Part shown: positions 12,864 through 51,182 of the stretch, piece after piece
Layout: each line of letters opens with the position of its first letter
Numbering within the stretch: position 1 is the first letter of the stretch
Assembly: GCF_024305175.1 (NCBI RefSeq)
Contig: NZ_JAMWYY010000003.1
Span: forward strand, 52,629-116,628
DNA length: 64,000 nt
Reading direction: 5' to 3'
DNA from: Flavobacterium sp.
GTDB lineage: Bacteria > Bacteroidota > Bacteroidia > Flavobacteriales > Flavobacteriaceae
The notes under the pieces: generated by a model
The model's input: the letters and a program-made list of their open reading frames with translations, nothing else
Told to the model about the DNA's origin: nothing
The model's database searches: none
Program-made: the position numbers and the translations under genes

Positions 12864-12937
12864 GGCCTCGTGGCGCAACTGAATAGCGCATCTGATTACG
12901 GCTCAGAAGGTTACAGGTTTGAATCCTGTCGAGGTCA
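12864..12937 (+). tRNA. tRNA-Arg(ACG)
   Basis: Acceptor GGCCTCG/CGAGGTC, anticodon arm TCTGA-TTACGGC-TCAGA, T-arm ACAGG-TTTGAAT-CCTGT. Confidence 0.93.
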
Positions 12938-16619: not shown

Positions 16620-17867
16620 TTATTCTTTTTGTTTTTCATCTTTCAACAGTATACTGTAGCCGGCTTTTAGCGTGACTTTTATTAGTTTTACCTTTCTGCT
16701 GAATAGGCCTTTTGCTGCTTCGATACCGGCTCCGGCCGCCTGTGCGCCCCAGGAATCGCTAAGGGTGTTCACGCCTAATGTTTGTACCGATCTGTCTGCA
16801 GAGGATTTCGCTACGTCGCGATTAATGGCACCGGGAATATAGATACCGCCCAAACCGTCCAGGTCATATACTGTAAGCTCCACGGGATAAAGGGAATTGC
16901 CATGACGGATATTCGCTATTTCGATAGCGAGGCGCTCCCCTTTCAATGAAGCTGTACCAAATACAAAAGTGTTCTTCGGTACTTTTCTGCCGCTGATATA
17001 AATATCCTGGCGCAATTGCATTTTCACGGTCGAGCCGTTGACTACTACCTGTGTTTCAGCGACTATGGCCTGTATGGCATTTTCGTCCACCTGCTCATTC
17101 ATTTGTTCCAGCGAAAAGAAGCCGTTATGTCGGACCACTGTGCTAAACGATGCTATCCCGGACAGGCTTTTACCACTGATGCTCGACACGACATCTGTGT
17201 CCTGTCGGGTTGCTACCGGAAATACCGTACCTCTTTCTGCACTTGATGCCGCCCTGAGTTTTTGCTCCATTCGCTCAGGATATTGTATATCGAGTATGCT
17301 TTCGAGCATCCCTCCTATTTGCTGGAGCTCTGGATCGCTTTGGGGTTGCTCCCGAAAGGACTGCATCATTTGCTCAAGTTCCGCTGCATGATTAGAGGGA
17401 ACAACATCTTCTTCTTCAGGGGCTGGCACCGCTACGGCTGTTCGGGCGGGCGGTGGTGTAGCTACAGCACGCTGCAGCGCCTCTAACCTTTCATATACTT
17501 TTTTTTCCTGCGGCGTCTGAAAACTGCTGAGGGTCAGGCCTCCGTATCGTCGTGTGCGGACGGAGTCGTTGGCCGGAGGTAGTGAATCGTACCTGTAATT
17601 TGGGTCTTTCTTACGCTGCTCTTCCACTTTACTGGAATCAAGCGCTGCCTGGTCGTAGTAACTAAGCTTGTCCAGCTCGCTATCTTCGCTTACCTGTGCC
17701 GACGGCAGCTTGAGGTTAAAGCCCTTCTTCGCCGGGATCCCTGTCGTTGTCGCGGCACCTCCGCCCATCGCCCAAAAGAACAGGGTAACAAAAGGGAGGA
17801 TTAACAGCGGAAGCAGCCAAAGAACCTTTTTCTTCCTGCCGTTTCCTGATTGGTCATTACTTTTCAT
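16620..17867 (-). CDS. traM: Conjugative transposon TraM-like protein
   Basis: N-terminal TM, Pro-rich linker, C-terminal VNGSTVKMQLRQDIYISGRKVPKNTFVFG (VirB10-like). Confidence 0.87.
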   Translation of the reverse strand: MKSNDQSGNGRKKKVLWLLPLLILPFVTLFFWAMGGGAATTTGIPAKKGFNLKLPSAQVSEDSELDKLSYYDQAALDSSKVEEQRKKDPNYRYDSLPPANDSVRTRRYGGLTLSSFQTPQEKKVYERLEALQRAVATPPPARTAVAVPAPEEEDVVPSNHAAELEQMMQSFREQPQSDPELQQIGGMLESILDIQYPERMEQKLRAASSAERGTVFPVATRQDTDVVSSISGKSLSGIASFSTVVRHNGFFSLEQMNEQVDENAIQAIVAETQVVVNGSTVKMQLRQDIYISGRKVPKNTFVFGTASLKGERLAIEIANIRHGNSLYPVELTVYDLDGLGGIYIPGAINRDVAKSSADRSVQTLGVNTLSDSWGAQAAGAGIEAAKGLFSRKVKLIKVTLKAGYSILLKDEKQKE

Positions 17868-18375
17868 ATGTTCTTGTTTTTCGATTACTATTTATAGTCT
17901 CGGCAATCCTGAGGCTGTCTAATAAGCCCGGTCTTGCATTCAGAATGCTGTCCCTTATAAGCAGGCCTGATGGAGACCTTGCAAGGCTGTCCATATAGTC
18001 CCGGAACTTCTGCACGCGGACTTCCAGCACGGAATCATATACTTCCGGCGGAATCAGTTCCTCATTAGCGGTCCTGACTTTTATTATGGGGGAAGGCTGC
18101 AAATCGACACCGTTGTTCAGGACATTAAGCCTGCCAGATATAAGAAGCAGGCAGCAGGACACGGAGACGGAAACAAAAATTCCGAGCGCGACGTACTGCC
18201 CCCTCCTGTTAAGCTTCAACGATTGTTTTTCCATCCATTCTGCCCACGCCAGTTTCATTCTCAGGTACCGCATACGCATATATTGCCTTAGGGTCGCCTT
18301 TTGTATTCCTCTCATATCTTTCATGGCTAATTCCGGTTTTCTGTGCTGATATCTTTGTTGTCGATGGTCCTCCAT
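17857..18375 (-). CDS. Tra-operon single-TM protein between traK and traM
   Basis: Overlaps both neighbours; one TM; operon context. Confidence 0.65.
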   Translation of the reverse strand: MEDHRQQRYQHRKPELAMKDMRGIQKATLRQYMRMRYLRMKLAWAEWMEKQSLKLNRRGQYVALGIFVSVSVSCCLLLISGRLNVLNNGVDLQPSPIIKVRTANEELIPPEVYDSVLEVRVQKFRDYMDSLARSPSGLLIRDSILNARPGLLDSLRIAETINSNRKTRTYEK

Positions 18376-18947
18376 CGCTCAATTAAGAATCCATGCGGGT
18401 TATTGTCGCTTCTTGATACATTCCGGAGGTTTCCCTCGGTAACCAGTATCCTTGTCATGACGCTGGTCGGCCGGACGATCTGTTGCCTGGCATAGCATCG
18501 GAAATAATACGGGTAGCCGGAGATATTGACCTGCACGCTGTCAATCACCACTTCCTGGCTTATATTGCCCGATATTATCCCTGAGTAATACCCGCTTTCC
18601 TTGAGGTCATCATAAACCCGCTTGGCGGTATTATCTGCCAGGTACAAAGCCTTGGTAATATTTTGGCGAATGACCTTATCGTCGGGATCCAGCGTAAAGA
18701 AGTACTGGTGAAAGTTCCTGACATGGTCGCGCGCCTCAACCTGTATATTGTCCCTGCGGTCGGAAGCGTAGGCTTCGATCGCCTTGCCGTTGGCCAGGAC
18801 ATATATTTTGTCCTGCATACGGTTTACCGTCTTAAAGCTTTGGTACAGGGCATACACGCAAACCAGCGTGCTGGCTACCACCACTACCAGGGTAAAGGCC
18901 CTGACGTGCCTGAAGGCCGTATCGATGTTGTTGAGTTTCTTAAACAT
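18327..18947 (-). CDS. traK: Conjugative transposon TraK-like (VirB8-like) protein
   Basis: MFKKLNNIDTAFRHVRAFTLVVVVASTLVCVYALY... Confidence 0.87.
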   Translation of the reverse strand: MFKKLNNIDTAFRHVRAFTLVVVVASTLVCVYALYQSFKTVNRMQDKIYVLANGKAIEAYASDRRDNIQVEARDHVRNFHQYFFTLDPDDKVIRQNITKALYLADNTAKRVYDDLKESGYYSGIISGNISQEVVIDSVQVNISGYPYYFRCYARQQIVRPTSVMTRILVTEGNLRNVSRSDNNPHGFLIERWRTIDNKDISTENRN

Positions 18948-18951
18948 TGTT

Positions 18952-20142
18952 TCAATTGCCTTTTAATTTATCCTTCATGTACTTGTCTTTATCGTCAAAA
19001 TACTGCGATGCCCCCTGGCGGGAAGCCCCTTGTGTCATTTGCCTGTACATATCGCCGTAGGCATCTGCCACCATACCCGCACCTGAGGCCGCGGATGTTG
19101 TGGCGGATGTTGTAGTGCTGCTGAATATATGGGTTACCTTTTGCCCCAGCGCACCCCCGCCACCGGCGTGGACGATATAGTTGGCAACCGACGGCACAGT
19201 GAAGTAACCCACGATCCCTATGATCATAAATACCAGGTAGGCCATATCGGTCCTGCTGAAAAACGTATCCCCGTATTCATTTACCTGGGCGATATCGACC
19301 TGCAGCATATGTTCCTGTATCTTCCCTATTATGCTTCCGAAGATATTTGCCACCGGAAGCCAAAGGAAAATATTGATATACCTTGCCAGCCAGACCGTAA
19401 GGGTATGCTGGAAGCCGTCAAAGACGGCCAGCCCGAAAACCAACGGGCCTAAGATGGAAAGCACCACCAACTGGAAAGTGCGCAAAGTGTCGATGCAAAG
19501 CGATGCTGCCTCAAAAAGCACACGCAGGACCTCGCTCATCCACTCCTTTACGGAGTTTCTGAAGTTGTAGGAAGCTTTCGCCATGGCAAACTTGATATCG
19601 TTACCAATGCTTTCTATCAGGCCTTCGCCGGAAGCATCCTCTCCTTCATGGGTATACTTGTACCAGCGCTCGCGGTCGCCACTCCCGTCTTCACCGACAT
19701 ACATTTGCCAGGCATCGGTCGTTTTGATGGCTTCCTCCTTTTGGCGGAGCAGTTCTTCGATAGCCGCATTGGAATTCTCAACCATCGTACCGGTCGCTGT
19801 TACGGTGGGCTTCATGATACCATTGATCATGGCAAGCACAAGCGGAAACGAAATGATGCAGAACCCTATGACAAAGGGGCGGAACAACGGATAGAAGTCA
19901 ATCGGCTCTGCATTGGCCAGGTGCCTCCATACCCGTGAGGCTATGTAGAACAGCGCCGCAAAACCGGCGATACCCTGCGAGATGCCAATGAGGTCGCTGC
20001 ACAGGGGCATCATCTCATCATAAAGCTGCTCGAGGATACCATGCAGTCCGCTCATCTCTTCTGCGAGCGACTGGCTATAGCCGGACGCGGGCAAAAGAAT
20101 CCCTATGGCTACGTAAAATGCAGCCTTACAAGTGATTTTCAT
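18952..20142 (-). CDS. traJ: Conjugative transposon TraJ-like multi-pass protein (VirB6-like role)
   Basis: LHGILEQLYDEMMPLCSDLIGISQGIAGFAALFYIASRVWRHLANAEPIDFYPLFRPF. Confidence 0.9.
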   Translation of the reverse strand: MKITCKAAFYVAIGILLPASGYSQSLAEEMSGLHGILEQLYDEMMPLCSDLIGISQGIAGFAALFYIASRVWRHLANAEPIDFYPLFRPFVIGFCIISFPLVLAMINGIMKPTVTATGTMVENSNAAIEELLRQKEEAIKTTDAWQMYVGEDGSGDRERWYKYTHEGEDASGEGLIESIGNDIKFAMAKASYNFRNSVKEWMSEVLRVLFEAASLCIDTLRTFQLVVLSILGPLVFGLAVFDGFQHTLTVWLARYINIFLWLPVANIFGSIIGKIQEHMLQVDIAQVNEYGDTFFSRTDMAYLVFMIIGIVGYFTVPSVANYIVHAGGGGALGQKVTHIFSSTTTSATTSAASGAGMVADAYGDMYRQMTQGASRQGASQYFDDKDKYMKDKLKGN

Positions 20143-20153
20143 TGCAGTTTTTT

Positions 20154-20789
20154 TTAATGGTTAGTTCCCGTGAGGAATCGTATCGCCTCCACATCGCGGG
20201 CTTCTTTTGCCCTCTGCACCGCCAGCAGGGTAGTTCCGGAATTGAAATCCCTGACGAACAGCATCTTTTCCTGCATTGACATATAGATCCTGTCGATAGC
20301 CGCCAGGCGCTCTTCATCCGACATCCGCATCTTGCCTGCCGTCAGGACACCGGTCAGCTCTTCAAGATTCTGAAGGCTTTCTTCGAAAATCGTTTCGTAC
20401 ACACCGGAAAAATAATGGAGTTCTCCAGCGGCGAAGAGCCCGCTTGACTGGAGCTTGTTGCGATGTCGCCCGCAGTCCTGTACGATCTGCACCTGGTAAT
20501 CGATAATATCCCCGACCCTTTTATAATTCCGCACTGCAGGGCTTACCTGCAGCAAAGCGTCCAGAAAAGTTTTGTGCAGGTCGAAATTCCCTTTGGTCAG
20601 GTCCTTAACCGTATTATAGCCCTTGGTCAGCATCTGGTAGCCTTCTTTCATGTCGTTGAGGATAGCCCTGAACTGGGCCAGTTTTTCAATGTTCAGTGCC
20701 AGCTGCTTCAATTCCTGTACCTGAGCGGTGGCTTTAGGGGTAAGCAAAAAAAGAAATAGCGACAGCAACACATATTTTATATTCTTCAT
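20154..20789 (-). CDS. TraI-like / tra-operon helical secreted protein (paralog A)
   Basis: Signal peptide, helical; shares pattern AGELHYFSGVYETIFEESLQNLEEL...MSDEERL with its neighbours. Confidence 0.7.
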   Translation of the reverse strand: MKNIKYVLLSLFLFLLTPKATAQVQELKQLALNIEKLAQFRAILNDMKEGYQMLTKGYNTVKDLTKGNFDLHKTFLDALLQVSPAVRNYKRVGDIIDYQVQIVQDCGRHRNKLQSSGLFAAGELHYFSGVYETIFEESLQNLEELTGVLTAGKMRMSDEERLAAIDRIYMSMQEKMLFVRDFNSGTTLLAVQRAKEARDVEAIRFLTGTNH

Positions 20790-21433
20790 GGCGCTTCATT
20801 TAGATTATGTAATTTTCGTACCTGCCTCACATTGGATAACTCTTGCCCCCTCGAGGCAGCCAATGCCTTGCATTCATTGTAGAAAGCAAGTGTAAAGGAA
20901 AATCGGTCTTCCATGCTGTTATGAAGCGCATCGATCCGTTTTATCCGTTCAGCGTCATCTGCCACGATACCGCTTTCCGACACGATGTCCTGTAACGCCT
21001 CAATATCATCGGCGCACGCTGTCAGCACACGCATCATTACACGGCGTATATAGTCTTTCTCGTCGCCATAGAAAAGGTCATCAGCCGTAAGCTGCTGCGT
21101 AAGCCTGGCCTCCACTTTCTCTATCTTGCCGTTGAGTTCCAGTATTGCTGCGGCCTTTGGATAATTCCGTACAAACGGGCTCACATTCTCCAGCCCTTTA
21201 AAAAAGAGCGCATGCAGGTTCAGCTCACCGTCTTTTATACTGCCGATAAAATCCAGGCCGTCTCTGGCAACACGGTAGCCCTTCTTGATGCAGTTGCCGT
21301 AGGTCTTGAGTGCGGCAATCTGTTGGAGCATGACCCTGTCCTGGCCGGATTGTGCTGAGCTGCCAAGCATCAGCAAGAGGGCTATTGTTGTGATAATAGT
21401 TTTCATAACACATGATTTAATTCCCGATTCCAT
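20786..21433 (-). CDS. Tra-operon helical secreted protein (paralog B)
   Basis: Same architecture: LTADDLFYGDEKDYIRRVMMRVLTACADDIEALQDIV...DDAERIKRID. Confidence 0.7.
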   Translation of the reverse strand: MESGIKSCVMKTIITTIALLLMLGSSAQSGQDRVMLQQIAALKTYGNCIKKGYRVARDGLDFIGSIKDGELNLHALFFKGLENVSPFVRNYPKAAAILELNGKIEKVEARLTQQLTADDLFYGDEKDYIRRVMMRVLTACADDIEALQDIVSESGIVADDAERIKRIDALHNSMEDRFSFTLAFYNECKALAASRGQELSNVRQVRKLHNLNEAP

Positions 21434-22100
21434 AGAGGCGTTTCATCTGGTCCACTTCTTTTTTGCTCTTCGCGCGTTGGAGCGTCAACAATACATTCTC
21501 CCGGTTGAACACCCGCAGGTCGTCATAATTCTGGTCGATCCGGTCGGCAGCTGCGTTGACCAGGTCAAGGCGCTCGGCATCTGTCATACTGGTGGAAAAA
21601 GATGCAATGACATCGAAGATCTGCTCCATATTTTCAAGGCTTTGCTCCAGGATACCGCCGTAGACCTCCTCCATATAGGAAAGTTCATCCGCTGTAAAAT
21701 GGTCGTCCTGCTGAAAAAGCTGCCAGGATCGCTGGTATTCCGATAGCAGCCGGGCCTGCTTTTGGGTTACCTCACGGATACGCTGGTATTGGCTGACAAC
21801 ATTTTTAACCTGTTTGAGCTCGTCATAATACTGCTGGTACAGCTCTTTCTGTTTGTTTGCCCACTCGGAAATCTCATCGAGCTTGACCTTTGACAGCGTG
21901 TTCTCGATTTCCTTCTGTGCATTTTGCAGCCAGATAGTCTTGTTCTGCAGCTTTTGTATTTTCAGGTCCATAGCTTTGATGGCCTTGACAACCGCGGCAC
22001 GGATTAGTCCGAATATCGGTGGTGGGGCCGCTTCCGGCCTCGCCTCGGCACTGCTCAGCAGCATAAAACAGAACAGTACCTTTAGGGCAATTGCTTTCAT
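21417..22100 (-). CDS. Tra-operon helical secreted protein (paralog C)
   Basis: DHFTADELSYMEEVYGGILEQSLENMEQIFDVIASFSTSMTDAERLDLVNAAADRID. Confidence 0.7.
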   Translation of the reverse strand: MKAIALKVLFCFMLLSSAEARPEAAPPPIFGLIRAAVVKAIKAMDLKIQKLQNKTIWLQNAQKEIENTLSKVKLDEISEWANKQKELYQQYYDELKQVKNVVSQYQRIREVTQKQARLLSEYQRSWQLFQQDDHFTADELSYMEEVYGGILEQSLENMEQIFDVIASFSTSMTDAERLDLVNAAADRIDQNYDDLRVFNRENVLLTLQRAKSKKEVDQMKRLYGIGN

Positions 22101-22111
22101 AATTTTGGATT

Positions 22112-24583
22112 TTATTTGTTTTGTTCCCTTATATCCTGGGCCAGGGTCGCTATGCCTTTTCGGACATCGCCTCCGTAACGCGCAGCATATTCCTGGACTT
22201 TGACCTTCTCGCTCTCTTCTGTGGTGTACGCCAAATATTCTTCCAGTGAAACCTCTGTGCGGTATACCTTTGACAGTACCCCGCCGAGTGATATAAACAC
22301 TTCTTTATAGTTCTTCTCGGGGTCGTTCGATTTGTTGACCGACAGCACGAGGGCTTTTTCCTTTTCGGTCAACCCCAAAAGTTCCTGTATCTGGTCAAAT
22401 TTATTTTGGTACTTCCGCTGGTCCAGTAAAATCTTACAGTCGCTGTTATTGATGATGGCCTGCTTGACCACCGGGGAGGAGATGATGTCTTCGACCTCCT
22501 GCGTTACCACTATAGCTTCACCGAAGAACTTGCGTACCGTCTTAAAAAGGTATTTGATATATTCCGCCATCCCTTCCTTGGCAATGGCCTTCCAGGCTTC
22601 CTCAATCAGTATCATTTTGCGGATACCCTTGAGTTTCCGCATTTTGCTTATGAAGACTTCCATAATGATTATCGTTACTACGGGAAACAATATGGGATGG
22701 TCCTTGATGTTATCAAGCTCAAAAACAATGAAGCGCTCCTGCAAAAGCTCCAGGTTTTCAGTTGCATTGAGCAGGTAATCAAATTCCCCTCCCTTGTAGT
22801 AAGGCCTGAGCACGTAGAGGAAATTGCTTACGTCAAAGTCCCTGTCCTTCACCTTGTCGGCCTCGAGCACTTGCGTAAAGTCGTCCCTTAGGAATTCGTA
22901 AAAGCTATCAAAGCCCGGGAATAAGGTTTCATTGTCAGCCAGACTTTCAAAGTACAGCTGCAGGGCATTGGAGAGTGCTACGTACTCGCTACGGCGGAAC
23001 GTTTCATTATCTTTTTTCCACAAAGCCAGGAGCAAGGTTTTGATGCTTTCTTTTTTCTCGGTATCCAGCCGGTCCCCTTCCCCGATGTAGAAAGGGTTGA
23101 AGCGTATAGGGTTGTGTTCTTCGTAAGTGAAATAGTATCCGCTCACCATATCGCAAAGGCCCTTGTAGCTGTGCCCGACATCCACCAGTACCACGTGGGT
23201 GCCCTGTTCATAATAGCTTCGCACCATATGGTTTGTAAAGAATGACTTTCCGCTTCCCGAAGGGCCGAGGATGAACTTATTCCGGTTGGTGCAGATGCCC
23301 ATTTTCATAGGCTCATCGCTGATATCCACATGGACGGGCTTTCCCGTTAGCCGGTCACCCAGCCGGATGCCGATGGGACTTATGGAGCTTCGGTAACCCG
23401 TCTCGAGGTTTAGAAAGCAGGAGGCCTGTTCCGCAAAAGAGTCGAAAGTATCATTCATCGGAAAATCAGCGGCATTCCCGGGAATGCCTGCCCAGTAAAT
23501 CTGCGCAGCCCCGACAGTTTCCTGCTTGGCCGAAGCATCCATTTGCGCCAGCGCCGAGGAAACCATGTTCTTGAGGTCGTTCAGGTCGTCCTTCCTGCCT
23601 GACCATACCAGCACATTGAAATGTCCCTTAACCGGAAGGCGCTGCCTGCTGATGGCCTCATTGAGAAAATCGTTTGTCGCATCCCTTGCGATTAGGTTCT
23701 CCCGGCTGTATGCCGATAATGACTGGAGCCTGAGCCGCTTGCTTTCCATACGCTGGAGTGTCCTGGCAGCATCTTCAACAAAAATGTACTGGCTATAGAT
23801 ATGGTTGCAGGAAAGCAGCTGCCCGAGCGGCGAGGCAAAGCCAACGCTGAAACTGGTACGATCTGTCGAATAGCGGTCATAAGTGATGCGTGGCCCGCAG
23901 AGTGAGGGGAGGTTCGCGGCATCAGCCAGGGTATAAAGTTGGGCATACTTGCCATTTATTAATAGCCCGTCCTCAAAAACAAGGTCACCAAACAAATATT
24001 CCCCCCCTTTCTCACTGAGTGTGCAATAGCGTTCCAACAGGCCTGCTTTTTTCTCTTCGCTATAGATATCAGTATCACCGAGTAAGATCGCCTTTACAAA
24101 GCCACTGTCTTCAAGGATTCTTTGAAACTGGCCTGCGGCATCCCTGAAATCCTGCAGTTCCTGCCTGCCCAATGACTCCTTGTAAAGGAGGGATTGCCGC
24201 GCTAAGCTTGAAAATAATGAAGTCGAACCTTTCCTACCCGATGGCTTCTTGGTCAGGAACAGGTAACAGCTATGGTCCAGGAATGGGCGCTCATTGAAGA
24301 AACGGTCACTGCTGCGGTCAAGGAAGCTGGTAGTATCGTGGCTGTAACCAGGCTGGAAACCTGACTTGATAAACCAGTCCTGCTTATACAATATGGTATG
24401 TTTTGGCAGCACCCTGATGGCCTTTAGCCATGCCTGGTGGAATGCTTCGTATTCCGAATCCGATAGGGTAAAAACCTCCGGCAATTCCAGGCGGAATACA
24501 ATAGTAGCGTCGCCTTGCTTCGATACGATAATCCCCTGCTGCACATCAAGTATGGGCAGCATCTTCTCAAGTGTCTTTTCCAT
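22112..24583 (-). CDS. traG: TraG-like conjugation ATPase (VirB4 family)
   Basis: ILGPSGSGKSFFTNHMVRSYYEQGTHVVLVDVGHSY Walker A; RKMILIEEAWKAIAKEGMAEYIKYLFKTVRKF. Confidence 0.95.
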   Translation of the reverse strand: MEKTLEKMLPILDVQQGIIVSKQGDATIVFRLELPEVFTLSDSEYEAFHQAWLKAIRVLPKHTILYKQDWFIKSGFQPGYSHDTTSFLDRSSDRFFNERPFLDHSCYLFLTKKPSGRKGSTSLFSSLARQSLLYKESLGRQELQDFRDAAGQFQRILEDSGFVKAILLGDTDIYSEEKKAGLLERYCTLSEKGGEYLFGDLVFEDGLLINGKYAQLYTLADAANLPSLCGPRITYDRYSTDRTSFSVGFASPLGQLLSCNHIYSQYIFVEDAARTLQRMESKRLRLQSLSAYSRENLIARDATNDFLNEAISRQRLPVKGHFNVLVWSGRKDDLNDLKNMVSSALAQMDASAKQETVGAAQIYWAGIPGNAADFPMNDTFDSFAEQASCFLNLETGYRSSISPIGIRLGDRLTGKPVHVDISDEPMKMGICTNRNKFILGPSGSGKSFFTNHMVRSYYEQGTHVVLVDVGHSYKGLCDMVSGYYFTYEEHNPIRFNPFYIGEGDRLDTEKKESIKTLLLALWKKDNETFRRSEYVALSNALQLYFESLADNETLFPGFDSFYEFLRDDFTQVLEADKVKDRDFDVSNFLYVLRPYYKGGEFDYLLNATENLELLQERFIVFELDNIKDHPILFPVVTIIIMEVFISKMRKLKGIRKMILIEEAWKAIAKEGMAEYIKYLFKTVRKFFGEAIVVTQEVEDIISSPVVKQAIINNSDCKILLDQRKYQNKFDQIQELLGLTEKEKALVLSVNKSNDPEKNYKEVFISLGGVLSKVYRTEVSLEEYLAYTTEESEKVKVQEYAARYGGDVRKGIATLAQDIREQNK

Positions 24584-30346: not shown

Positions 30347-31729
30347 ATGGATATAACTGCCAAATTGTGGTCTTTTTGTCATATCTTAAGGCAAGATGGC
30401 GTAGACAATGCTGACTATATAGAACAATTAACCTATCTCCTTTTTTTAAAAATGGCTGATGAAAGTGGTATATCTGTCCCTCAAAATTGCCAATGGAGTA
30501 ATCTCATAACGAGAGAGGGAGAAGAATTGAAGAAGTATTATGAACAGCTCCTACTGAATTTAAAAAAAGAGAAGGGAATTTTGGGACAAATTTTCCAAGA
30601 ACCAATTGCTAAAATCAAGAATCCGGTAAGTTTAAAGAAAATTGTAGACGGTATCGAGGCAATTGGGTGGACAGAATTGGAAAAAGATGTACAAGGAGAA
30701 GCATTTGAAGGACTACTGGACAAGATAGCTAATGAGGGGAAAAAGGGTGCCGGACAATTTTTTACTCCAAGACCACTCATCCAAGCAATCGTTGAAGTTG
30801 TGAGGCCTAATCCCTTGGAGAAAAAAGATTTTAAAATTTCTGATGTTGCCTGCGGCACAGCAGGCTTCTTAACCATGGCAGTAGATTGGGCGAAGAAAAA
30901 TACTAATCATAGTGAACTAGCTAAAATCAAAAACAAATCATACTATGGCCAAGAGCTTGTGGTGAGACCATATCGTTTGGCTTTAATGAATTTGTTTCTA
31001 CATGGTATTATTCCAAATCTAACTTTGGGAGATTCGATATACAGCCCCGTCGAACATAAATACAAGTTTGATTGCATAATAACTAATCCACCATTTGGCA
31101 CTCGTGGTGTTTCGGGATCTCCAAAAATAAGAAAGTTCATGGTGGACACTAGTAACATTCAAATAAATTTTATTCAACATATAAATGAAGTGTTGGCAGT
31201 TAATGGACGTGCAGCAATTGTTTTACCGGACAGTAGCCTAACTGATAGTAAAGCTAAAGAAGTATGGAAAAATATTTTACAAGATGGTCATTGCAATTTG
31301 CATACTATTTTAAAACTACCCAAAGGCACCTTTAATCCATATGCCGCTGGAGTAAAAGCTTGTGTAGTCTTTCTTCAAAAAGGTATGCCAACAAAAGAAT
31401 TATGGGTATACGATGCAAGAACTGACGTCCAAGACGTAACGAAAACCTCCCGCCCACTACAATACGATTTACACTTCGCGGACTTTGTGAAATCATATGG
31501 CCAAAAATATGACGGAACAGGCTTCAGAGAAGAATCAAATAGATTTAAAAAATATACTTTTCAGCAAGTCGTGGAAAGAGGTTATGACTTATCGTTTACT
31601 AACATTTTTGAACCTGAAAAACTGGAGGATCCATCATTTTATTTAGAAAAGCTCATAGGAAATTATCAAGAGCAACTCACATCATTACAAGCTTTAAAAG
31701 AACTATTAAATGTGAAAGGTGATGCGTAA
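30347..31729 (+). CDS. hsdM: Type I restriction-modification DNA methyltransferase subunit (HsdM)
   Basis: GKKGAGQFFTPRPLIQAIVEVV, DVACGTAGFLTMA, FDCIITNPPFG (NPPF); start at ATG 30347 (MDITAKLW). Confidence 0.96.
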   Translation: MDITAKLWSFCHILRQDGVDNADYIEQLTYLLFLKMADESGISVPQNCQWSNLITREGEELKKYYEQLLLNLKKEKGILGQIFQEPIAKIKNPVSLKKIVDGIEAIGWTELEKDVQGEAFEGLLDKIANEGKKGAGQFFTPRPLIQAIVEVVRPNPLEKKDFKISDVACGTAGFLTMAVDWAKKNTNHSELAKIKNKSYYGQELVVRPYRLALMNLFLHGIIPNLTLGDSIYSPVEHKYKFDCIITNPPFGTRGVSGSPKIRKFMVDTSNIQINFIQHINEVLAVNGRAAIVLPDSSLTDSKAKEVWKNILQDGHCNLHTILKLPKGTFNPYAAGVKACVVFLQKGMPTKELWVYDARTDVQDVTKTSRPLQYDLHFADFVKSYGQKYDGTGFREESNRFKKYTFQQVVERGYDLSFTNIFEPEKLEDPSFYLEKLIGNYQEQLTSLQALKELLNVKGDA

Positions 31730-33437
31730 TTTTCTGTTTAAAATAGACTTAAGAGATATTTTATTTGTCCAAAAAGGAACAAAACCATCCATACTACGGA
31801 AAAAAAACTTCGATAAAGCCGTTCCTTATCTTGATATCCATGCCCTGGAAAATTTTGAAATTCGTGAATACACATATGCAGAACTCGGCAATATTGCTAA
31901 TAACTCTGATGTTCTTATGGTATGGGATGGTTCTAGATCAGGGTTGTGCTTTTTGGGTCAACATGGTGCTATAGGCTCAACTTTAATGCGACTGACGCCT
32001 ATTGAGTTCAACACAAAATATGTATATTATTTTATCAAAAGTAAGTTTCAATTTATAAATAAAAATACGAAAGGCAACAGTATCCCACATGTCGATCCAG
32101 ACGTACTTCTTGATTTAAAGATACCATATGTTCCGATTACGGAGCAGGTAGATATCGTTAAAGAAATTGAGCTTAAACTTAATAACAGTAAACACATATT
32201 TAATTTTCAGAAGAAGCAATTTATTAATAGCCTGAAATCCAATGTTAGTTATGATTCCAAAAACACGGATATAGATATCGACATTATAAAACATCTACAA
32301 AATTTTAAGCAATCGGTTCTTAGACAAGCTTATTCCGGCGAGTTATCCTCGGAATATAGAAAATCCCTGACTGATGCTTCAAATTTCAGCAGTGAGAGCT
32401 ATGAACAGTATCTGTCCGAATTTAGCGTGCCGGATAGTTGGAAATGGAATAACTTCAAAAATATCTCTCAAATTAGCGTAGGTGCTACGCCGAAACGTAG
32501 TGTTAAAGCCTATTGGGGTGGACACATACCATGGGTTAGCAGTGGAGAAGTAAATAATTCCTTTATAAATGCTAGCAAAGAAAAAATAACAAAATTAGCC
32601 GTTGAAAGTACCAATCTCAAATTGTTAAGTAAAGGTACTATACTGATGGCTATGGTAGGAGAAGGCAAAACGAGGGGACAAGTTGGGCTTCTAAAAATAG
32701 AGGCATGCACAAATCAAAATGTTTGTGCAATAACCTTAAACGATGGTATAGACCCTCTCTTTGTCTTTTACTATTTGCAAATGAAATATTTAGAAATCAG
32801 AAATGAATCCATTAATGCTAGATCAAGTAGCAGTCAATCGGCCTTAAATAGCATTATTGTTGGCAATCTAAACATTTGTTTACCTAGTTATGAAGAGCAG
32901 AAATTTATTTCGCAAAAGATTGAAAAAATTTTAAAGATTGTTGATAAGCTACAAATTGATTTTAATCAGGCACAATTAGAAATGGAAAATCTGGAACTTG
33001 CAATTTTGAGTGAAGCTTACATTGGGAGCTACGATGAGCCTAATTCGGTAAAACATGATTTTGAAAAGTTGCTTAAAGCAATTGAAACGACAAAGACTAG
33101 GATTGAAGAGGATAGAAACAATATTCGAAAAGTCCAGGCAAAATTTAAAAAAGAGCACTTTATGAAAAATATTAAAGAAAATATTATTTCGGAAATTAAG
33201 AAAGAAGCTTATATTACATTACAAGGTAAAGACATTTCAAATGATGACAAGATAAACTTATTTGAAAGTCTAAATTCAAGTATACCGGACATGGATTTTG
33301 ATGATTTTTCAAAAGCTTTCTTAGAACTAGCACAGGAAAAACTATTTAAGAATGATCCTGATCCTTTTTTTATTGCAAAAAGCGTTAATGGCAAACTGGT
33401 TCATACAATAATTAATTATGAAAATTCAGTATCTTAA
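31722..33437 (+). CDS. hsdS: Type I specificity subunit (HsdS) with two target recognition domains plus ~120 aa C-terminal extension
   Basis: Two TRD plus coiled-coil repeats (KQSVLRQAYSGEL; ELAILSEAYIGS); overlaps hsdM. Confidence 0.92.
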   Translation: MRNFLFKIDLRDILFVQKGTKPSILRKKNFDKAVPYLDIHALENFEIREYTYAELGNIANNSDVLMVWDGSRSGLCFLGQHGAIGSTLMRLTPIEFNTKYVYYFIKSKFQFINKNTKGNSIPHVDPDVLLDLKIPYVPITEQVDIVKEIELKLNNSKHIFNFQKKQFINSLKSNVSYDSKNTDIDIDIIKHLQNFKQSVLRQAYSGELSSEYRKSLTDASNFSSESYEQYLSEFSVPDSWKWNNFKNISQISVGATPKRSVKAYWGGHIPWVSSGEVNNSFINASKEKITKLAVESTNLKLLSKGTILMAMVGEGKTRGQVGLLKIEACTNQNVCAITLNDGIDPLFVFYYLQMKYLEIRNESINARSSSSQSALNSIIVGNLNICLPSYEEQKFISQKIEKILKIVDKLQIDFNQAQLEMENLELAILSEAYIGSYDEPNSVKHDFEKLLKAIETTKTRIEEDRNNIRKVQAKFKKEHFMKNIKENIISEIKKEAYITLQGKDISNDDKINLFESLNSSIPDMDFDDFSKAFLELAQEKLFKNDPDPFFIAKSVNGKLVHTIINYENSVS

Positions 33438-35088
33438 ACTTTTAAATAAATATCGAAGCCTAGAGCCATTCGAGTATCAATTTTTAAAGCATCCTTTATT
33501 GCTAGATAAGATTGATCCTATCTGTTTGGTTGGCTTGAATGGAAGTGGAAAATCGAACTTCTTAGAACTACTATCTGATATATTCTATGAGATTGAGGTA
33601 TACTTTCTCTATACACACAAGTTATACTTAAATAACAGCCCCAAATACTTTCCATATTCAGATAACAAATCAAAAACCAGTATTCTGTTTCATATAGAAT
33701 ATGAAATTACTGTAAAACAGAAGCGTGAGACCATAAGGATAATTCGTACTCGTGAGAGAGATGAAATTAAGTTTTATAGAAAGAGCATTAAAAAAAATTC
33801 ATTACAAAAAGATGATTTTGTCAAAGTCAATGCCCTTAACGCCAGAGATTATATTCCCTTAACCGTTGCTTATACTTCCGGATTAAATGATTTACTTACT
33901 CTACCTTATGTAGATTTGCAAGACTATTATGCGGAACAAGTAGCTAATGAAGCCATTTCTAGTGTAAATCCTGCACAAAAAATTCTATCACCGAATCTTT
34001 TATTACTTAATTACGATTCAAATGCCGCAATTGTCGTGTCAAATTTCATTCTTGCTGAAACAAATAAGCAGGAAATTTTCACTAACAATCTTAGGGTGTC
34101 CGGAATGAATACTTTTCGTATAGTAATTAGATTACATAAGCTTTATGGAAACAAAAAAGTACAAATAACCCAAGAACTTAACACTTACATTGAACAGTTG
34201 AAAGATTGCGCAACGCTCGCAAACATCAGTATTGATGACGTAAAAGGCAATGAATATGTATTTGACTTTCTCGTGAACAAAATAACGATAAATTTATTTA
34301 AAGATAAGTTTGGCAATGTCCAAAATTTATTTGAGGCATTAACCAAACTAAATTTGTTAAATACACTATGTATTCAAAAAAAATATAAAGACTTACTAAG
34401 AAAAAAGAGGGAGAAAGGACAACTTATCAAATTTCCACAGATTGCCTCTCTTGATAAAATCTTTAGTATTGAGAACATCGAACTAGTTCTCAAGCACCCT
34501 GAGGTGAGAACAGAGTATGAAAAAATAAGTGATGGCGAGCATCAATTTATTCATATCTTGGGCGGAATCCTACTTTTTGATACTAAGAAGGCAGATAGAG
34601 ATATTCTATATCTTTTAGATGAACCTGATACTCATTTTAATCCTTTATGGCGGAGTGACTTCTTTTATCAGATGGACAAAGTATTAGCGAATAAAAATGT
34701 AGAGTTCGTCGTGACTACTCATTCGCCGTTCATATTGTCTGACTGTCACGGCTATAATGTCTTTAAATTTAAAAGAACCGAGGGTAAAGTAACCTTTTCA
34801 AGGGTTGAAAAAGAAACATATGGAGCGACTTATGAAAACGTTACGGAAAGCTTATTTGATCCCAACGATGATGATTACAAGCACTTTGATAGTCGAATCG
34901 CAAAACTGGCATTTTTAGATATTGAAAAACTCCACAGCGAAATTGCTGAAATTGATAGCCATCAGCAATGGATCGAAAAGAGAGAGAATTTTTTAAGTAG
35001 AATTCGTATGCTCGGCGAATCAGTTGACAGATTATATCTTCTCGATGAGTTTTCAAAGTGTGACCAGAAATTTAAAGAAGAGGTCTAG
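33418..35088 (+). CDS. AAA/ABC-type (SMC/PtuA-like) ATPase associated with the restriction operon
   Basis: Walker A GLNGSGKSNFLELL; signature-like ISDGEHQFIHILGG; Walker B ILYLLDEPDTHFNP; VVTTHSPFILSD H-loop. Confidence 0.9.
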   Translation: MKIQYLKLLNKYRSLEPFEYQFLKHPLLLDKIDPICLVGLNGSGKSNFLELLSDIFYEIEVYFLYTHKLYLNNSPKYFPYSDNKSKTSILFHIEYEITVKQKRETIRIIRTRERDEIKFYRKSIKKNSLQKDDFVKVNALNARDYIPLTVAYTSGLNDLLTLPYVDLQDYYAEQVANEAISSVNPAQKILSPNLLLLNYDSNAAIVVSNFILAETNKQEIFTNNLRVSGMNTFRIVIRLHKLYGNKKVQITQELNTYIEQLKDCATLANISIDDVKGNEYVFDFLVNKITINLFKDKFGNVQNLFEALTKLNLLNTLCIQKKYKDLLRKKREKGQLIKFPQIASLDKIFSIENIELVLKHPEVRTEYEKISDGEHQFIHILGGILLFDTKKADRDILYLLDEPDTHFNPLWRSDFFYQMDKVLANKNVEFVVTTHSPFILSDCHGYNVFKFKRTEGKVTFSRVEKETYGATYENVTESLFDPNDDDYKHFDSRIAKLAFLDIEKLHSEIAEIDSHQQWIEKRENFLSRIRMLGESVDRLYLLDEFSKCDQKFKEEV

Positions 35089-35090
35089 CT

Positions 35091-36278
35091 ATGTTATTTT
35101 ACTTACAATTTAAAAATCACGATATTGAAAAATTACAAGATCTGATTAAATTTTTTTTTGATAAAGTCCAGTCATCTAATCCTACATCCTTTAGTAGTAA
35201 GATATTATTTCCGCAATGGTATAGTGATCCGCCGGTACATAGGATGACAGTATTGGAAAAGCTGCTTAAAGAATTTCTAACTTTTGACGATGCCACTAAA
35301 AATAGAATTATAGATGCTTTCAACCGAAGTTTAGATATAAAAAGACTATTCGATGATACTACACTGAGTATTGATACAGCTAAAGATTTTAATAACATCG
35401 TTTGGAAAACTATAAATGATAAAAAAGGTAATACAAAACAACTCTCAATTGCCGATTTCTTATCTGAACTTTTCAATCATCTATATAGTAGTCAACTTGG
35501 AAAAAAGGACAGTTCATTTTGCAAAAAAATTAAATCGGATTTAGGTGAATTCTACAGGTTATTTGTCCAGGAAAATTCAATAAATTATGTGGAATACATG
35601 GTTTGCCCGTATTGTGGTCTTGAAAAAATGCGGGATGAAATGAGCATTCGGAAACCTGATCACGATCACCTTTTGCCAAAGGGGAACGACTTGTTTGTAT
35701 TTGCTGCAATAAATTCTAAAAATCTTTTTCCTTCAGGTACCGACTGTAATCTAGTAAAAGATACTAAACAATTACTTTACTCTGATGATTTCAAGACTAG
35801 ATGTACAGCATTCTATCCCTATAACTCGCAGCCACATCCATTTGAAGAGATGGTCTTTTCGTTAAATTGCTTAGAATTACCAAATATAAATAATAGCTAT
35901 AAGGGAAATTGGTCGGTCGAAATAGAACCCAAAAATGCAGCAGACACAATTATCAGAGATAAAATTGAGTCTTGGGATAGAGTATTTAATATTAAGGCCA
36001 GGTATAAGAGGATAATTAGTATAGGAAATAAAGCATTGATAGACAAAGAACTTCAGCTAACTAGACTTACCAATACTGAAGAATTAAAAAAGAAGTTGGA
36101 ATCCCAAATAGAGCGATTGCCTATTAACTATTTTATGCTAAGCACCGAATTAGAAGTCATTACAAGAAGAATCTTTTTCCAATGGGCAATAGAGGAAATA
36201 AGTTATTTGCAGGAGCTAATTGATTTAAACATCAAAAACAATTTTGCTACTCAAGTAGATCTCAGCTTTGTGGCTTAG
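35091..36278 (+). CDS. HNH-type nuclease (PtuB-like)
   Basis: CPYCGLEKMRDEMSIRKPDHDHLLPKG...NLFPSGTDCNLVKDTK reads as an HNH fold; 2-nt gap from the ATPase gene. Confidence 0.78.
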   Translation: MLFYLQFKNHDIEKLQDLIKFFFDKVQSSNPTSFSSKILFPQWYSDPPVHRMTVLEKLLKEFLTFDDATKNRIIDAFNRSLDIKRLFDDTTLSIDTAKDFNNIVWKTINDKKGNTKQLSIADFLSELFNHLYSSQLGKKDSSFCKKIKSDLGEFYRLFVQENSINYVEYMVCPYCGLEKMRDEMSIRKPDHDHLLPKGNDLFVFAAINSKNLFPSGTDCNLVKDTKQLLYSDDFKTRCTAFYPYNSQPHPFEEMVFSLNCLELPNINNSYKGNWSVEIEPKNAADTIIRDKIESWDRVFNIKARYKRIISIGNKALIDKELQLTRLTNTEELKKKLESQIERLPINYFMLSTELEVITRRIFFQWAIEEISYLQELIDLNIKNNFATQVDLSFVA

Positions 36279-36279
36279 A

Positions 36280-36501
36280 TTAAATTCCTAATGATTTAAA
36301 AAACTCAAAAAGTTTGATTTCTCTTGCTTCACAAATCTTCATTAGTGTTATCAGACTTATTTGATAATCTTTATCATTTTTAATCCTTCTTACCGTCTTT
36401 TCATCTATATTGTGCTCAGTTGCAAAATAATTTTGCGATTCAGCTTTATCCACCCATTCCCGGGCAATATATTCAACAATTAAACGATTTTTATCCTTCA
36501 T
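36280..36501 (-). CDS. Small HTH (Cro/CI-like) DNA-binding protein
   Basis: SQNYFATEHNIDEKTVRRIKNDKDYQISLITLMKICEAREIKLFEFF. Confidence 0.75.
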   Translation of the reverse strand: MKDKNRLIVEYIAREWVDKAESQNYFATEHNIDEKTVRRIKNDKDYQISLITLMKICEAREIKLFEFFKSLGI

Positions 36502-46903: not shown

Positions 46904-49900
46904 TTAAAGCAATTCAGCTATACTATCAATTATCTTTTCTATTTCTATGGAGTCGATTCCTTCCGTAGGGCTTTCCGTCGTCGTAAACAATGTTTGATTT
47001 ATAACTAAACCATTTTGCTGATAGAAAAGCCTCTTTTTTTCCCAATCTTGTTTATAGGTGGGTATGGACATCATTCCCAAGTGCTCGAGTATTATAATAT
47101 CTCCCGCCGCGTCCATAAATGTAAAATCAGGTATCCTTTTTTGACCGTCAGCACTTTCATATTCCCTTTCATACTCGAAATCAAGGCCCTTTTCAATGAG
47201 CATATTTGCAATAATCACCTCTGATTTGCTGCGTACAATCAGGCCTTCTTTCTTCGTCTTGTGAATAAGTCCTGATGCATATGGCACACTATTTCTCTCG
47301 TCTCGTACCGATGCCTGAAATAGGTTACTGTTGCGTTTTGAGGTTACGGAATATTGTGGTTTTGACAAGTTTAGTATCCAATGCGGAGAATCACCTTCGA
47401 CCAGCAATATTAACTTCTTCTTGGCCCTTGTTAATGCAGTATATATCAACTCCCTTGATATTAATTTTCCCGTCTTTGGCAGGATAAGAAAGACATAATC
47501 AAAATCACTTCCCTGGCTCTTATGGATTGTTATGGCGTAAGCTAATTCAAGATTTGCTTTATCGGTGTCATTATTGCCTTGGCCTTTATAACCATAGGTA
47601 TCGTTGTTGTCAATCCCGGAAAAAACAACATTGGCATAACCTTTATTCAGACCTTTTACCACACCCAATTGACCGTTTGAAATCTGTTGTTCCATACCTG
47701 AAGGATAACCATCTATCTTTTCGTTTGCAGTCTGTATGACCTTATCGAATAGACCTATTTTGTAATCCCCGATATTGACGGTCAATCTTTTACCGGATTT
47801 GAATTGCTGCTGGAATTTACGGTTAAGGTTGAACGCTCCCCAAAAGGGTGCCTTTACGGGAGTCAGTAACTGAAAAGCCTCCACTTTTTTGGTATCGATT
47901 CCGTCTGGAGAGATGCCTATAAAAGTATTTAAGGAATGGTAATCACTATCGTCACTGAGATTCAGGACCTGCACAACTGAAGTATTTAGCAGTCTATATA
48001 AGTCCTGCTCATCTTTCCAGCAGTGGAGCTGTAGGTCGTTGAGTCTGGTATTATCACCCAAACGTGAGAAAATATCATCAGCATTTTTGGTGGGCTTAAT
48101 GCCGGAATACCATGAGGCAAGGGTAAGTGTGTCTGAATCATTGCCGGAAACCGTCCTGACAACCTCTTGCAATCTCGCCAATGCATTGCTTGCCTCATAA
48201 TCCATATCAACTGCCTTAAGGGATTCCAAATAAGAACATATATCTGCAAAGGGACGGCCTGCTCCTATAGGAGGCAGTTGGAACGGATCACCTACTAAAA
48301 TTATACGTTTTACATGTGCGGGGTCTAACGCTTGTAAAACAGCATATAGATCGTCCACAGTGAGCATGGAACATTCATCAATCACAATGTTTTGCTCGGC
48401 CTTATATTTATCCTGACCCGTAAACTTAGGCTTAAGCCGAACCCAGTCAAAGCGCTTCTGCTTAGATAAAAATTGCGCAATGGTTAATGCCTGGCTTCCC
48501 TTTCCTGCCATTTTTTCTAATTTAACCCTTGCCTTGCCTGTCGGGGCGAGTAAAAGTACACCTTCACTTTTTAAGCTTTGGCTGCCAAACAAAGCGCCCA
48601 TGACTGTTGTTTTCCCTGTACCGGCAGGACCATGAAGGATGGATAATTTCCTCCCTGTAATTTTTTGCAGCGCCGCCACCTGGTCCTTAAGCGCTGCTAT
48701 ATGCCGGTCATTATTTTGGTCAAACAGAATATCGTTAGCATGGATCGTTTTCTTTACCAGACTCTCCCAATCTTCATTCAAATCAGGCAACACTTTTTTA
48801 GCCCGGGCCAGTAACGTTTTTCGTAAATAGGCCTCTGCTTCAAAATAATGCTTGAGTTGGAAAGCATCAAGAGTATCAGAAACTATATAAGGCAGGCGCT
48901 CTTTGAAAAACTCAAGATTAGCATGCAGGTAATTTTGCGGAAGGGTAATAACCCTTTGCATGTTAAGCGTATTCACCATGGCTGTAATCTCCGTAAGGGA
49001 TTGGATAGTATCACCATTAATAGCCGCATCTTTAAGAAGGCTCGTGACGATAGCCCTTATTCTTCTCTGATCGATGGAAGATTCCACAAGTTGCGGGCTT
49101 ACGGGTGAATAGTCCCCTTGTATCGCCCTGTCTTCAAATAAACCATTATCAAGGGTTTCAACTGCGATGGGATAATGATCATTATCTCCTAAATCCTCTT
49201 CCGCTATAATATATGGATTCAGTAAAATTTCAGCATCAGAAAACATGTGCCCGCATTTTTTTCGTTGCAGGGGATCAAACCAGTTTTTAATCTGCCTGTC
49301 ACTAAGTTCAAACCGTGATAATAGATATAATAATTCTTTCCGTTCATTTGATTCGGCAAGCCACACATCGCGAAACTGAGGCAAGTCGCCGCGATACGAA
49401 GTATTACCTGTTGTCAAGTGTCCAAAAATAATATCCTCCCAGACATCCCAGGGATTATCTTTTGTCCCTAAATGATTGCCTTTGCGCAGGTCATCCTCAA
49501 GAGAATGCCCATATTGGAACCCTAAAGCTATCAGGGCATTGCCAAAAGACGGGAATGGGCCCATACTCTCCTTAACTTTACCAATCTGCTTATCGATCCA
49601 TAGCAGGTTATTGTCCCAGTATCCCGACACTATGCCATGATCCTTAATTCGGCTAACAATAGAGCGTAGTTTTCCCAGTAGAGACAGCATTATACTGTCG
49701 TCGATCCATGAACTTCCATAAGTGAATTTTGATATGGCCTCTTGGCTACCTGCTGTCTCCTGTAAGGTTAGTTTTATTTCATTTATTAAATCGGTCTTGG
49801 TCTTTACACCATCTATAGTATTGAGTTTAAAATCCTCTGGTAGCTGAAGGTACTCATGGTAGGGCAAAAGAACTCCCTCACTTTGTGCGTCATCAGGCCT

Positions 49901-50566
49901 GATTCCGTGGGTTATCAATCTATCCCATAACGGATAGGTATACTCCTTTTTGGAATCGTATTTTAAAATACATGATTTCTTTTTAACTGTCCCTATTCCG
50001 GCAATGAGCCTTTTGGAATCCTCATCTATGGGGTTGGCTCCCTTAAGATAGAAAATAGCAAGCGACGTTTCTTCTTTTATGGGATCGAAAAAAGTGTTGA
50101 GCAGTCCCTCCTGGGTCGTATTGCTATATACCCAAGCTGAGTCAAAGGGAGGATTAGCATCTTTTTGTATGCCAGGGTAGTTTGATAATATGTCTTTTTG
50201 GTTGGATCGGAGCATCCACCAGAAAGGAACTGCAAATGTTGTAAACGGAGGAATTGTTATCTCTGTTGGTTTTAATGCCAGATGAGGTATGTTCTTCCTG
50301 TTCGGCTGGTTATAAGGATGATTGAACAGCCGGCGATACGCATTCTTGTTCATAAATGCGCCACCTTCACTCTGACAGGGAGGAAGCCTGTCGTTTTGGA
50401 GACTATCCCAGCTTATTCCGGAATGCTCCTCTTCAAACGTTTCGTTCTTATTATCATTTATCCTGGGCAGGTGGATACAATACGTATTTTTTCCAGGATG
50501 GCTGCAAATACTGCCATTCCATTTATTATCATGCCATGCGATTCTTATTGCTATATGCTTACTCAT
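46904..50566 (-). CDS. RecD2-like superfamily 1 helicase with C-terminal PD-(D/E)XK-like nuclease domain
   Basis: LHGPAGTGKTTVMGALFGS; VIDECSMLTVDDLYAVL; YAITIHKSQGSDFDYVFLILP...LIYTALTRAKKKLILL; C-terminal SKSEVIIANMLIEKGLDFEYEREYE..RIPDFTF...IILEHLGM. Confidence 0.85.
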   Translation of the reverse strand: MSKHIAIRIAWHDNKWNGSICSHPGKNTYCIHLPRINDNKNETFEEEHSGISWDSLQNDRLPPCQSEGGAFMNKNAYRRLFNHPYNQPNRKNIPHLALKPTEITIPPFTTFAVPFWWMLRSNQKDILSNYPGIQKDANPPFDSAWVYSNTTQEGLLNTFFDPIKEETSLAIFYLKGANPIDEDSKRLIAGIGTVKKKSCILKYDSKKEYTYPLWDRLITHGIRPDDAQSEGVLLPYHEYLQLPEDFKLNTIDGVKTKTDLINEIKLTLQETAGSQEAISKFTYGSSWIDDSIMLSLLGKLRSIVSRIKDHGIVSGYWDNNLLWIDKQIGKVKESMGPFPSFGNALIALGFQYGHSLEDDLRKGNHLGTKDNPWDVWEDIIFGHLTTGNTSYRGDLPQFRDVWLAESNERKELLYLLSRFELSDRQIKNWFDPLQRKKCGHMFSDAEILLNPYIIAEEDLGDNDHYPIAVETLDNGLFEDRAIQGDYSPVSPQLVESSIDQRRIRAIVTSLLKDAAINGDTIQSLTEITAMVNTLNMQRVITLPQNYLHANLEFFKERLPYIVSDTLDAFQLKHYFEAEAYLRKTLLARAKKVLPDLNEDWESLVKKTIHANDILFDQNNDRHIAALKDQVAALQKITGRKLSILHGPAGTGKTTVMGALFGSQSLKSEGVLLLAPTGKARVKLEKMAGKGSQALTIAQFLSKQKRFDWVRLKPKFTGQDKYKAEQNIVIDECSMLTVDDLYAVLQALDPAHVKRIILVGDPFQLPPIGAGRPFADICSYLESLKAVDMDYEASNALARLQEVVRTVSGNDSDTLTLASWYSGIKPTKNADDIFSRLGDNTRLNDLQLHCWKDEQDLYRLLNTSVVQVLNLSDDSDYHSLNTFIGISPDGIDTKKVEAFQLLTPVKAPFWGAFNLNRKFQQQFKSGKRLTVNIGDYKIGLFDKVIQTANEKIDGYPSGMEQQISNGQLGVVKGLNKGYANVVFSGIDNNDTYGYKGQGNNDTDKANLELAYAITIHKSQGSDFDYVFLILPKTGKLISRELIYTALTRAKKKLILLVEGDSPHWILNLSKPQYSVTSKRNSNLFQASVRDERNSVPYASGLIHKTKKEGLIVRSKSEVIIANMLIEKGLDFEYEREYESADGQKRIPDFTFMDAAGDIIILEHLGMMSIPTYKQDWEKKRLFYQQNGLVINQTLFTTTESPTEGIDSIEIEKIIDSIAELL

Positions 50567-50792
50567 AATTTCTAAACTATTAAGCTCTAAAAATAGCGAA
50601 CTTTTTAACATTCGCGGCTATAATATGTAAGGCTTTCCTGTTATTTATAAAAAACTCTACAGATAGTAAATGATTTTTTTATGCTCTTAATTGTTCAAAA
50701 CTACTCAGGTCATGTGCATAATTTACCCATGATTGTTTCTTTATCTGATGTTGCATAATTTCGGGTATTACTGTGAGATGACAAAGGATAAT

Positions 50793-51182
50793 GGAATGGG
50801 AACAGATCAAAATAACAGGACAAAATGGATACATTTAAGACTCTCCCCATCGGAATATCGAGCCATACAAAGCAGGTACCAAAAGACCACATGCCGTAAT
50901 TTCAGCCAGTATGCCCGTGCCGCTTTGTTGGATCGGCCAATAGTCACTACCTATCGAAATGTTTCACAGGACGATCTGTTGCAGGAGATGGTAGTATTCA
51001 ACCGGGAACTGAATGCCATAGGGAATAATGTCAATCAATCGGTCAAAAGGCTGCATACGCTTCAGGAACATGAAACCTCCTCATGGGCGGTACAATATTC
51101 CGTTACCTCTGCCAGGCTCGAGGAAAAAATACTGGAAGCCAAAACACTGTTGAATGTGATTGCCGAGCGATGGTTGCGGTAA
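50793..51182 (+). CDS. Relaxosome accessory / RHH-type mobilization protein (MobC/BmgB-like)
   Basis: KWIHLRLSPSEYRAIQSRYQKTTCRNFSQYARAALLDRP...ELNAIGNNVNQSVKRLH. Confidence 0.85.
   Translation, partial: GMGTDQNNRTKWIHLRLSPSEYRAIQSRYQKTTCRNFSQYARAALLDRPIVTTYRNVSQDDLLQEMVVFNRELNAIGNNVNQSVKRLHTLQEHETSSWAVQYSVTSARLEEKILEAKTLLNVIAERWLR

Follow-up and report, generated by a model that had tools for sequence, protein, structure and literature searches.

A four-gene operon of HsdM, HsdS, a PtuA-like ATPase and an HNH protein

The window analyzed here is a 64,000-nt stretch of a Flavobacterium sp. genome (contig NZ_JAMWYY010000003.1, positions 52,629 to 116,628), and our subject is a cassette of four genes on its forward strand (30347-36278). 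According to the open reading frame (ORF) listing of the window, these encode, in order, the methyltransferase subunit HsdM and the specificity subunit HsdS of a type I restriction-modification (RM) system, an ATPase, and an HNH-type protein. HsdM and HsdS overlap by 11 nt, HsdS and the ATPase gene overlap by 20 nt, and 2 nt separate the ATPase gene from the HNH gene. These coordinates agree with a preliminary description of the window, and its reading of the four genes as a single operon is supported (features are collected in Table 1).

HsdM matches the Pfam profiles N6_Mtase (8e-59) and HsdM_N (3e-12), with motif I (DVACGTAGFL) and motif IV (NPPF, about 31085-31096) intact; an alternative start at an upstream TTG (30281) is possible. 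The ATPase scores 311.4 bits against the NCBIfam family TIGR04435, for which the curated cut-off is 300, making it a member only just above the cut-off; the match agrees with the remark in the preliminary description that restriction-system-associated AAA ATPases had been annotated. Against the PADLOC PtuA1 profile (PDLC00293) the ATPase reaches 137 bits (3e-40, residues 1-459), and against the NCBIfam retron PtuA family only 47 bits (cut-off 500). Its nearest solved structures are PtuA of Septu and PtuA of retron Ec78, and it carries a Walker A motif (GLNGSGKS, about 33532-33555) and a Walker B/D-loop motif (LLDEPDTHFNP, about 34606-34644). The HNH protein has zero matches in Pfam or NCBIfam and weak matches in PADLOC (PDC-M01B, the best, at 6e-7; PtuB1 at 1.5e-5). 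In an alignment of 29 relatives, positions C172, C175, G176, D192, H193, C219, N220 and K223 of its CxxC...DH...N...CN...K signature are invariant and N211 is near-invariant. The earlier suggestion of a Septu-type ATPase paired with an HNH protein is supported.

Table 1. Features of the cassette and of the element around it, in window positions
Feature	Position	Strand	Basis
HsdM, type I N6-adenine methyltransferase subunit, 460 aa	30347..31729	+	ATG start; profiles
HsdS, specificity subunit, 572 aa, two Methylase_S stretches and C-terminal extension	31719..33437	+	GTG start; Methylase_S 1e-22
HsdS C-terminal tail, about residues 456-572	33084..33434	+	Comparison with other HsdS; AF2 model
PtuA-like ABC/SMC-type ATPase, TIGR04435 restrict_AAA_1, 556 aa	33418..35088	+	Profiles; motifs
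HNH-type nuclease partner, 395 aa	35091..36278	+	CxxC-DH-N-CN signature, about 35604-35759
Cro/C1-type HTH ORF, HTH_26, 73 aa, convergent with the HNH gene	36280..36501	-	Profile
Serine recombinase adjoining tRNA-Arg	12864-14453		
CTnDOT-type TraM, TraJ and TraG genes	16620-24583		
Relaxase	51083-52435		
Coupling protein	52451-54433		

Conservation of the four-gene unit

To place the cassette among its relatives, we drew on surveys of 396 genomes of the phylum and 398 genomes of the order, in overlapping sets. The ATPase scored above the cut-off in 12 of these genomes, with HsdM and HsdS directly upstream in all 12 and the HNH gene present in 11, and no TIGR04435 ATPase above the cut-off was found there without HsdM and HsdS directly upstream. 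The co-conservation of all four genes that had been claimed earlier is thereby borne out. When the HNH protein alone was searched for in 250 genomes of the genus, the 10 other matches all lay in the same operon type, one of them frameshifted (L094). The co-occurrence of the ATPase with HsdM and HsdS and the result of the HNH-only search therefore put the pairing far beyond chance. Wide scans with a single ATPase or a single HNH sequence gave no matches, and an alignment query was needed. The order HsdM-HsdS-ATPase-HNH is fixed in about 30 loci from at least four phyla (Bacteroidota, Pseudomonadota, Bacillota and Cyanobacteriota).

These data bear on whether the four genes belong together at all. 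A solitary epigenetic methyltransferase and an autonomous Septu-like system could share an operon by chance, given that PtuAB acts alone as Septu and that defense genes cluster in islands. Since no above-cut-off TIGR04435 ATPase was found without HsdM and HsdS directly upstream, the order is conserved across phyla, and the type of HsdS tail matches the type of effector (see below), we consider such independent neighbors the least probable of the explanations weighed here.

Some loci depart from the common arrangement. In L085 (L085:9548-12136), a TIGR04435 ATPase stands beside an HsdS that lacks the tail, and a reading as a cassette without HNH was rejected, as the downstream 150-aa ORF is a remnant corresponding to the C-terminal half of a PtuB1-type protein; for the same reason the locus is probably a decaying, damaged or hybrid cassette. 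A Sphingobium cassette (L017:8608-10325) carries an 8xMP membrane protein and a GIY-YIG nuclease with DUF4357 between HsdM and HsdS.

hsdR is an optional component

Type I restriction is taught as HsdR-dependent. As the preliminary description had stated, no HsdR is encoded among the window ORFs: the lone large helicase (46904-50611) is an SF1 protein of the AAA_30/UvrD type. Nor does the contig hold an hsdR in the 16.6 kb that immediately precede the window (L096). Across the whole assembly, HSDR_N gave a single sub-cut-off match, in a 162-aa ORF, and none above the Pfam cut-off, and a cassette-type HsdR query gave no match. An hsdR lying close beyond the window edge, or in another part of the genome, was looked for and not found over cut-off. 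The cassette's HsdS is the one Methylase_S gene in the assembly.

Among the 28 TIGR04435 loci with a decidable upstream side, hsdR lies directly upstream of the four genes in 17 and is absent from 11. Mapped on the ATPase tree, the hsdR state changes at least 5 times, compared with about 9 times for shuffled labels; therefore the state is inherited in blocks, yet the gene has been gained or lost repeatedly. Cassettes without hsdR occur in several separate ATPase lineages, and a shared replacement gene beside them was rejected, their neighborhoods holding no common substitute. Several of the genomes with such cassettes, including the closed genome G191, encode an HsdR of another type elsewhere, and help in trans is therefore possible there; the assembly of the window has none over cut-off. 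Between hsdR and hsdM, three loci share a conserved 124-aa ORF (L086:3792-4166, L087:3762-4136 and L092:15041-15418), the three copies being mutually related.

The preliminary description had proposed that the effector replaces HsdR. This holds insofar as no hsdR is present here, but the ATPase-HNH pair is not simply a substitute, because 17 of the 28 decidable relatives keep hsdR and the state switched at least 5 times. It is thus better described as a portable second effector, one that stands alone in this window.

The same observations could instead describe a degenerate type I RM system, in which this locus has lost hsdR and the genes left behind are either inactive or served by an HsdR in trans. 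The retention of hsdR in some relatives (L086-L089, L092, L093), the mobile-element location, the fragmented assembly and the loss of one HNH cysteine would all fit. Such decay accords poorly with four intact ORFs that keep their catalytic motifs, with the lack of an above-cut-off HSDR_N match in the assembly, and with the recurrence of hsdR-less cassettes in several lineages, including the sister cassette on a Hymenobacter plasmid, and we judge it very unlikely.

One HsdM lineage with two effector pairs

The window HsdM falls in an EcoKI-like lineage and thereby differs from its counterparts at most TIGR04435 loci. It is most closely related to the copy in the Hymenobacter plasmid cassette (58.7% identity) and to that of L030, from another species of the same genus (51% over the full length), compared with 29% identity to L088. 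In L030, the effector consists of a PtuA1-type ATPase, which shares 33% identity over 89 aa with the window ATPase, and a PtuB1 HNH protein; the HsdS carries a PtuAB-type tail, and no hsdR lies within 17 kb upstream. Since the L030 HsdM is 51% identical but accompanies a PtuA1/PtuB1 pair, one methylase lineage thus occurs with two different ATPase-HNH pairs. Other lineages (L057, L058, L038, L046, L054) show the order HsdS-PtuA-PtuB-HsdM, some with an upstream HsdR.

An effector-specific tail on HsdS

Cassette HsdS proteins are 459-623 aa long, versus about 372-446 aa for most ordinary HsdS of the genus, a few of which reach 470-588 aa without a detectable cassette. A profile built from the TIGR04435-cassette tails was tested by leaving out whole clusters: it recovered the tails of several of them at the very C-terminal end of the protein (best 3e-10) and matched none of the ordinary HsdS tested. 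The tail of PtuA1/PtuB1 cassettes is distinct: each of 13 was recovered when left out (1e-22 to 5e-4), and this tail type was not found in TIGR04435 cassettes or ordinary HsdS. Tail distances correlate with ATPase distances at r 0.82 (partial correlation given HsdM, 0.71) and with HsdM distances at 0.58. For HNH and ATPase distances the corresponding values are 0.81 and 0.64, so the tail is co-inherited with the ATPase as closely as the HNH protein is. In contrast, the second target-recognition part of HsdS shows no correlation with the ATPase beyond HsdM (partial -0.05).

The AF2 model of the window tail is winged-helix-like between about residues 508 and 565, where it shows helices and a beta hairpin with pLDDT 63-74. 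This tail is common to the window and L015, and its link to the remaining tails is limited to position, size and this modest-confidence model. PtuA-like ATPases also occur beside tail-less HsdS (L028, L039, L142), so the tail is not universal among type I loci linked to an ATPase-HNH pair. We propose that the window tail is an effector-docking module. More broadly, and tentatively, tails of this kind may be effector-specific docking modules, with the type I methylase serving as a shared platform on which HsdR, TIGR04435-HNH, PtuA1-PtuB1, or two together can be exchanged; the window would then represent an HsdR-independent type I class with a Septu-type cutter.

Proposed mechanism

Based on gene content and comparison with relatives, we favor, short of calling it probable, a reading of the locus as a mobile anti-phage cassette that performs methylation-guided restriction through an HsdS-tethered ATPase-HNH effector. 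HsdM and HsdS would work together as a methylase of the type I style, marking the host at a sequence chosen by HsdS and thereby both self-marking and directing the effector. The PtuA-like ATPase and the HNH protein would make up an effector complex of the Septu type, probably held to the methylase by the additional tail at the HsdS C-terminus. Where a target site is unmethylated, HsdMS would license the complex to cut nucleic acid, most likely invading DNA; the pair would serve as a second effector where HsdR adjoins and as the sole effector at this locus. DNA is the proposed target because of the HNH signature and because phage DNA is the reported substrate of Septu PtuAB (PMC11555353, PMC12198126).

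The main rival is a guard model, in which the ATPase-HNH pair is an abortive-infection toxin, silenced by intact HsdMS and released once a phage anti-restriction protein interferes with the methylase, with tRNA or host DNA as its possible target. Precedents for it exist: PrrC is an ABC-motif nuclease that is bound and silenced by the linked type I RM system EcoprrI and activated by T4 Stp (PMC2610378), and PARIS, an OLD-type ATPase with a nuclease, senses Ocr and cuts tRNA (PMC12839542). The PrrC precedent, along with the depletion of tRNA-Tyr by the retron Ec78 PtuAB (PMC11555353), keeps this model alive, and the coexistence of hsdR and the pair in most loci is what would be expected of a backup. 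The hsdR-less loci, by contrast, have no restriction to guard and yet keep the HsdM catalytic motifs, HNH folds are typically DNases, and no PrrC-like anticodon-nuclease domain was matched in profile searches. Methylase motifs, Walker motifs and HNH residues are all conserved even without hsdR; the retention of the methylase motifs favors methylation-guided restriction over a pure guard, and we consider the guard model unlikely, though a serious contender.

Several observations weigh against methylation-guided restriction through a tethered DNA-cutting effector. Depletion of tRNA-Tyr, not of DNA, by the retron Ec78 PtuAB (PMC11555353) makes RNA a possible target. The correlation with the ATPase forms a gradient that rises toward the 3′-end, and the tail-ATPase correlation could partly reflect physical linkage, because the tail abuts the ATPase gene. 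The profile search found no significant homology between the window tail and other tails, and we therefore rejected the window tail as a detectable homolog of other cassette tails. Fold searches with the tail and with the HNH protein returned nothing at E<=0.001, and no fold is therefore claimed for either. The window HNH protein also lacks the zinc-ribbon cysteine C216, which is near-invariant among relatives. Finally, the assembly (3.2 Mb) is in 112 contigs with no detectable 16S gene, so a missing gene, such as an unassembled hsdR, is possible.

Relation to known systems

The window shares the HsdM-HsdS-ATPase-HNH order with the NCBIfam TIGR04435 ('restriction system-associated AAA family ATPase') loci, but differs from them in having no hsdR, an ATPase score near the cut-off and an HsdM of another lineage than most. 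With Septu it shares a PtuA-like ATPase, which matches the PtuA1 profile over most of its length as well as solved PtuA chains, and a downstream HNH partner; this partner is larger (395 aa) and only weakly PtuB-like. Whereas Septu is a two-gene stand-alone system, the cassette has HsdM and HsdS upstream in every above-cut-off locus. Both subunits are homologous to those of EcoKI-like type I RM systems, from which the window differs in lacking HsdR and in the extra C-terminal tail of HsdS. The PrrC/EcoprrI system likewise places an ABC-motif ATPase effector inside a type I RM locus, but PrrC is a single protein with an anticodon nuclease domain beside a complete type I RM system, while here the nuclease is a separate HNH protein.

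Similarities to MADS (methylation-associated defense) and to the PADLOC candidate families PDC-M01/PDC-M62 were also seen, as HsdM and HsdS match mad2 and mad5 and the best HNH match is PDC-M01B; all scores fall far below the MADS equivalog cut-offs (MAD2 85 versus 720, MAD5 53 versus 400, and MAD3 14 versus 420 bits). Retron type I-A (Septu II) has a reverse transcriptase beside PtuAB, where the pair described here has HsdM/HsdS, an HTH ORF and a SusC-like gene as neighbors instead. In PARIS the partner is the TOPRIM nuclease AriB, whereas the window partner has an HNH signature and no TOPRIM match.

The preliminary description had held that the full architecture could be uncharacterized, which stands for the mechanism but not for the association, as the latter is already annotated in the TIGR04435 name and in PADLOC candidate families. 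We found no experimental study on TIGR04435 or HsdMS-PtuAB operons in the literature, while OLD-type ABC ATPases are reported to be coupled to nucleases in RM-like systems (PMC12839542, referring to earlier work). New in this analysis are the count of loci with and without hsdR, the exchange of effectors within a single HsdM lineage, and an HsdS tail that is specific to the effector type. Recurrence across phyla with and without HsdR suggests that the unit is an exchangeable anti-phage weapon on a common platform for recognition. If this is true, a widespread mobile methylase platform that bears Septu-type effectors, either in place of HsdR or alongside it, would connect two defense classes, offer a modular route to sequence-guided nucleases, and suggest a trigger for PtuAB-like effectors, which has been listed as unclear (PMC12198126). 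The HsdS tail makes the methylase-effector coupling directly testable.

Mobile-element setting and neighboring genes

A CTnDOT-like conjugative element carries the cassette as cargo between its tra and mob blocks. The GC content of the cassette is 33.5%, much lower than the value of about 46% in the flanking 10 kb. Related cassettes are found on plasmids (a mobilizable Hymenobacter plasmid and Priestia, Sphingobium and Kovacikia plasmids) and on two viral-collection contigs (L051 and L052). No phase-variable hsdS duplicates or flanking repeats of note surround the cassette, and no RNA families were found near it. Upstream, the neighbors of the ATPase and HNH genes are HsdM and HsdS; downstream of the cassette come the small HTH ORF and then the SusC-like gene. 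The 73-aa HTH ORF beside the HNH gene is a putative regulator and a possible candidate member of the system. The flanking regulator belongs to a large paralogous family, and a search for empty insertion sites through it gave no information.

Other genes of the same element include the SF1 helicase (46904-50611, minus strand; 1235 aa), which matches the PADLOC candidate defense family PDC-S68 at 1283 bits. A YhcG/DUF1016 PDDEXK nuclease protein (54449-55438, plus strand) adjoins the coupling gene, and a tandem of an ImuB-like Y-family polymerase and a DnaE-type polymerase III alpha subunit (57052-61715, plus strand) resembles an inducible mutagenesis cassette.

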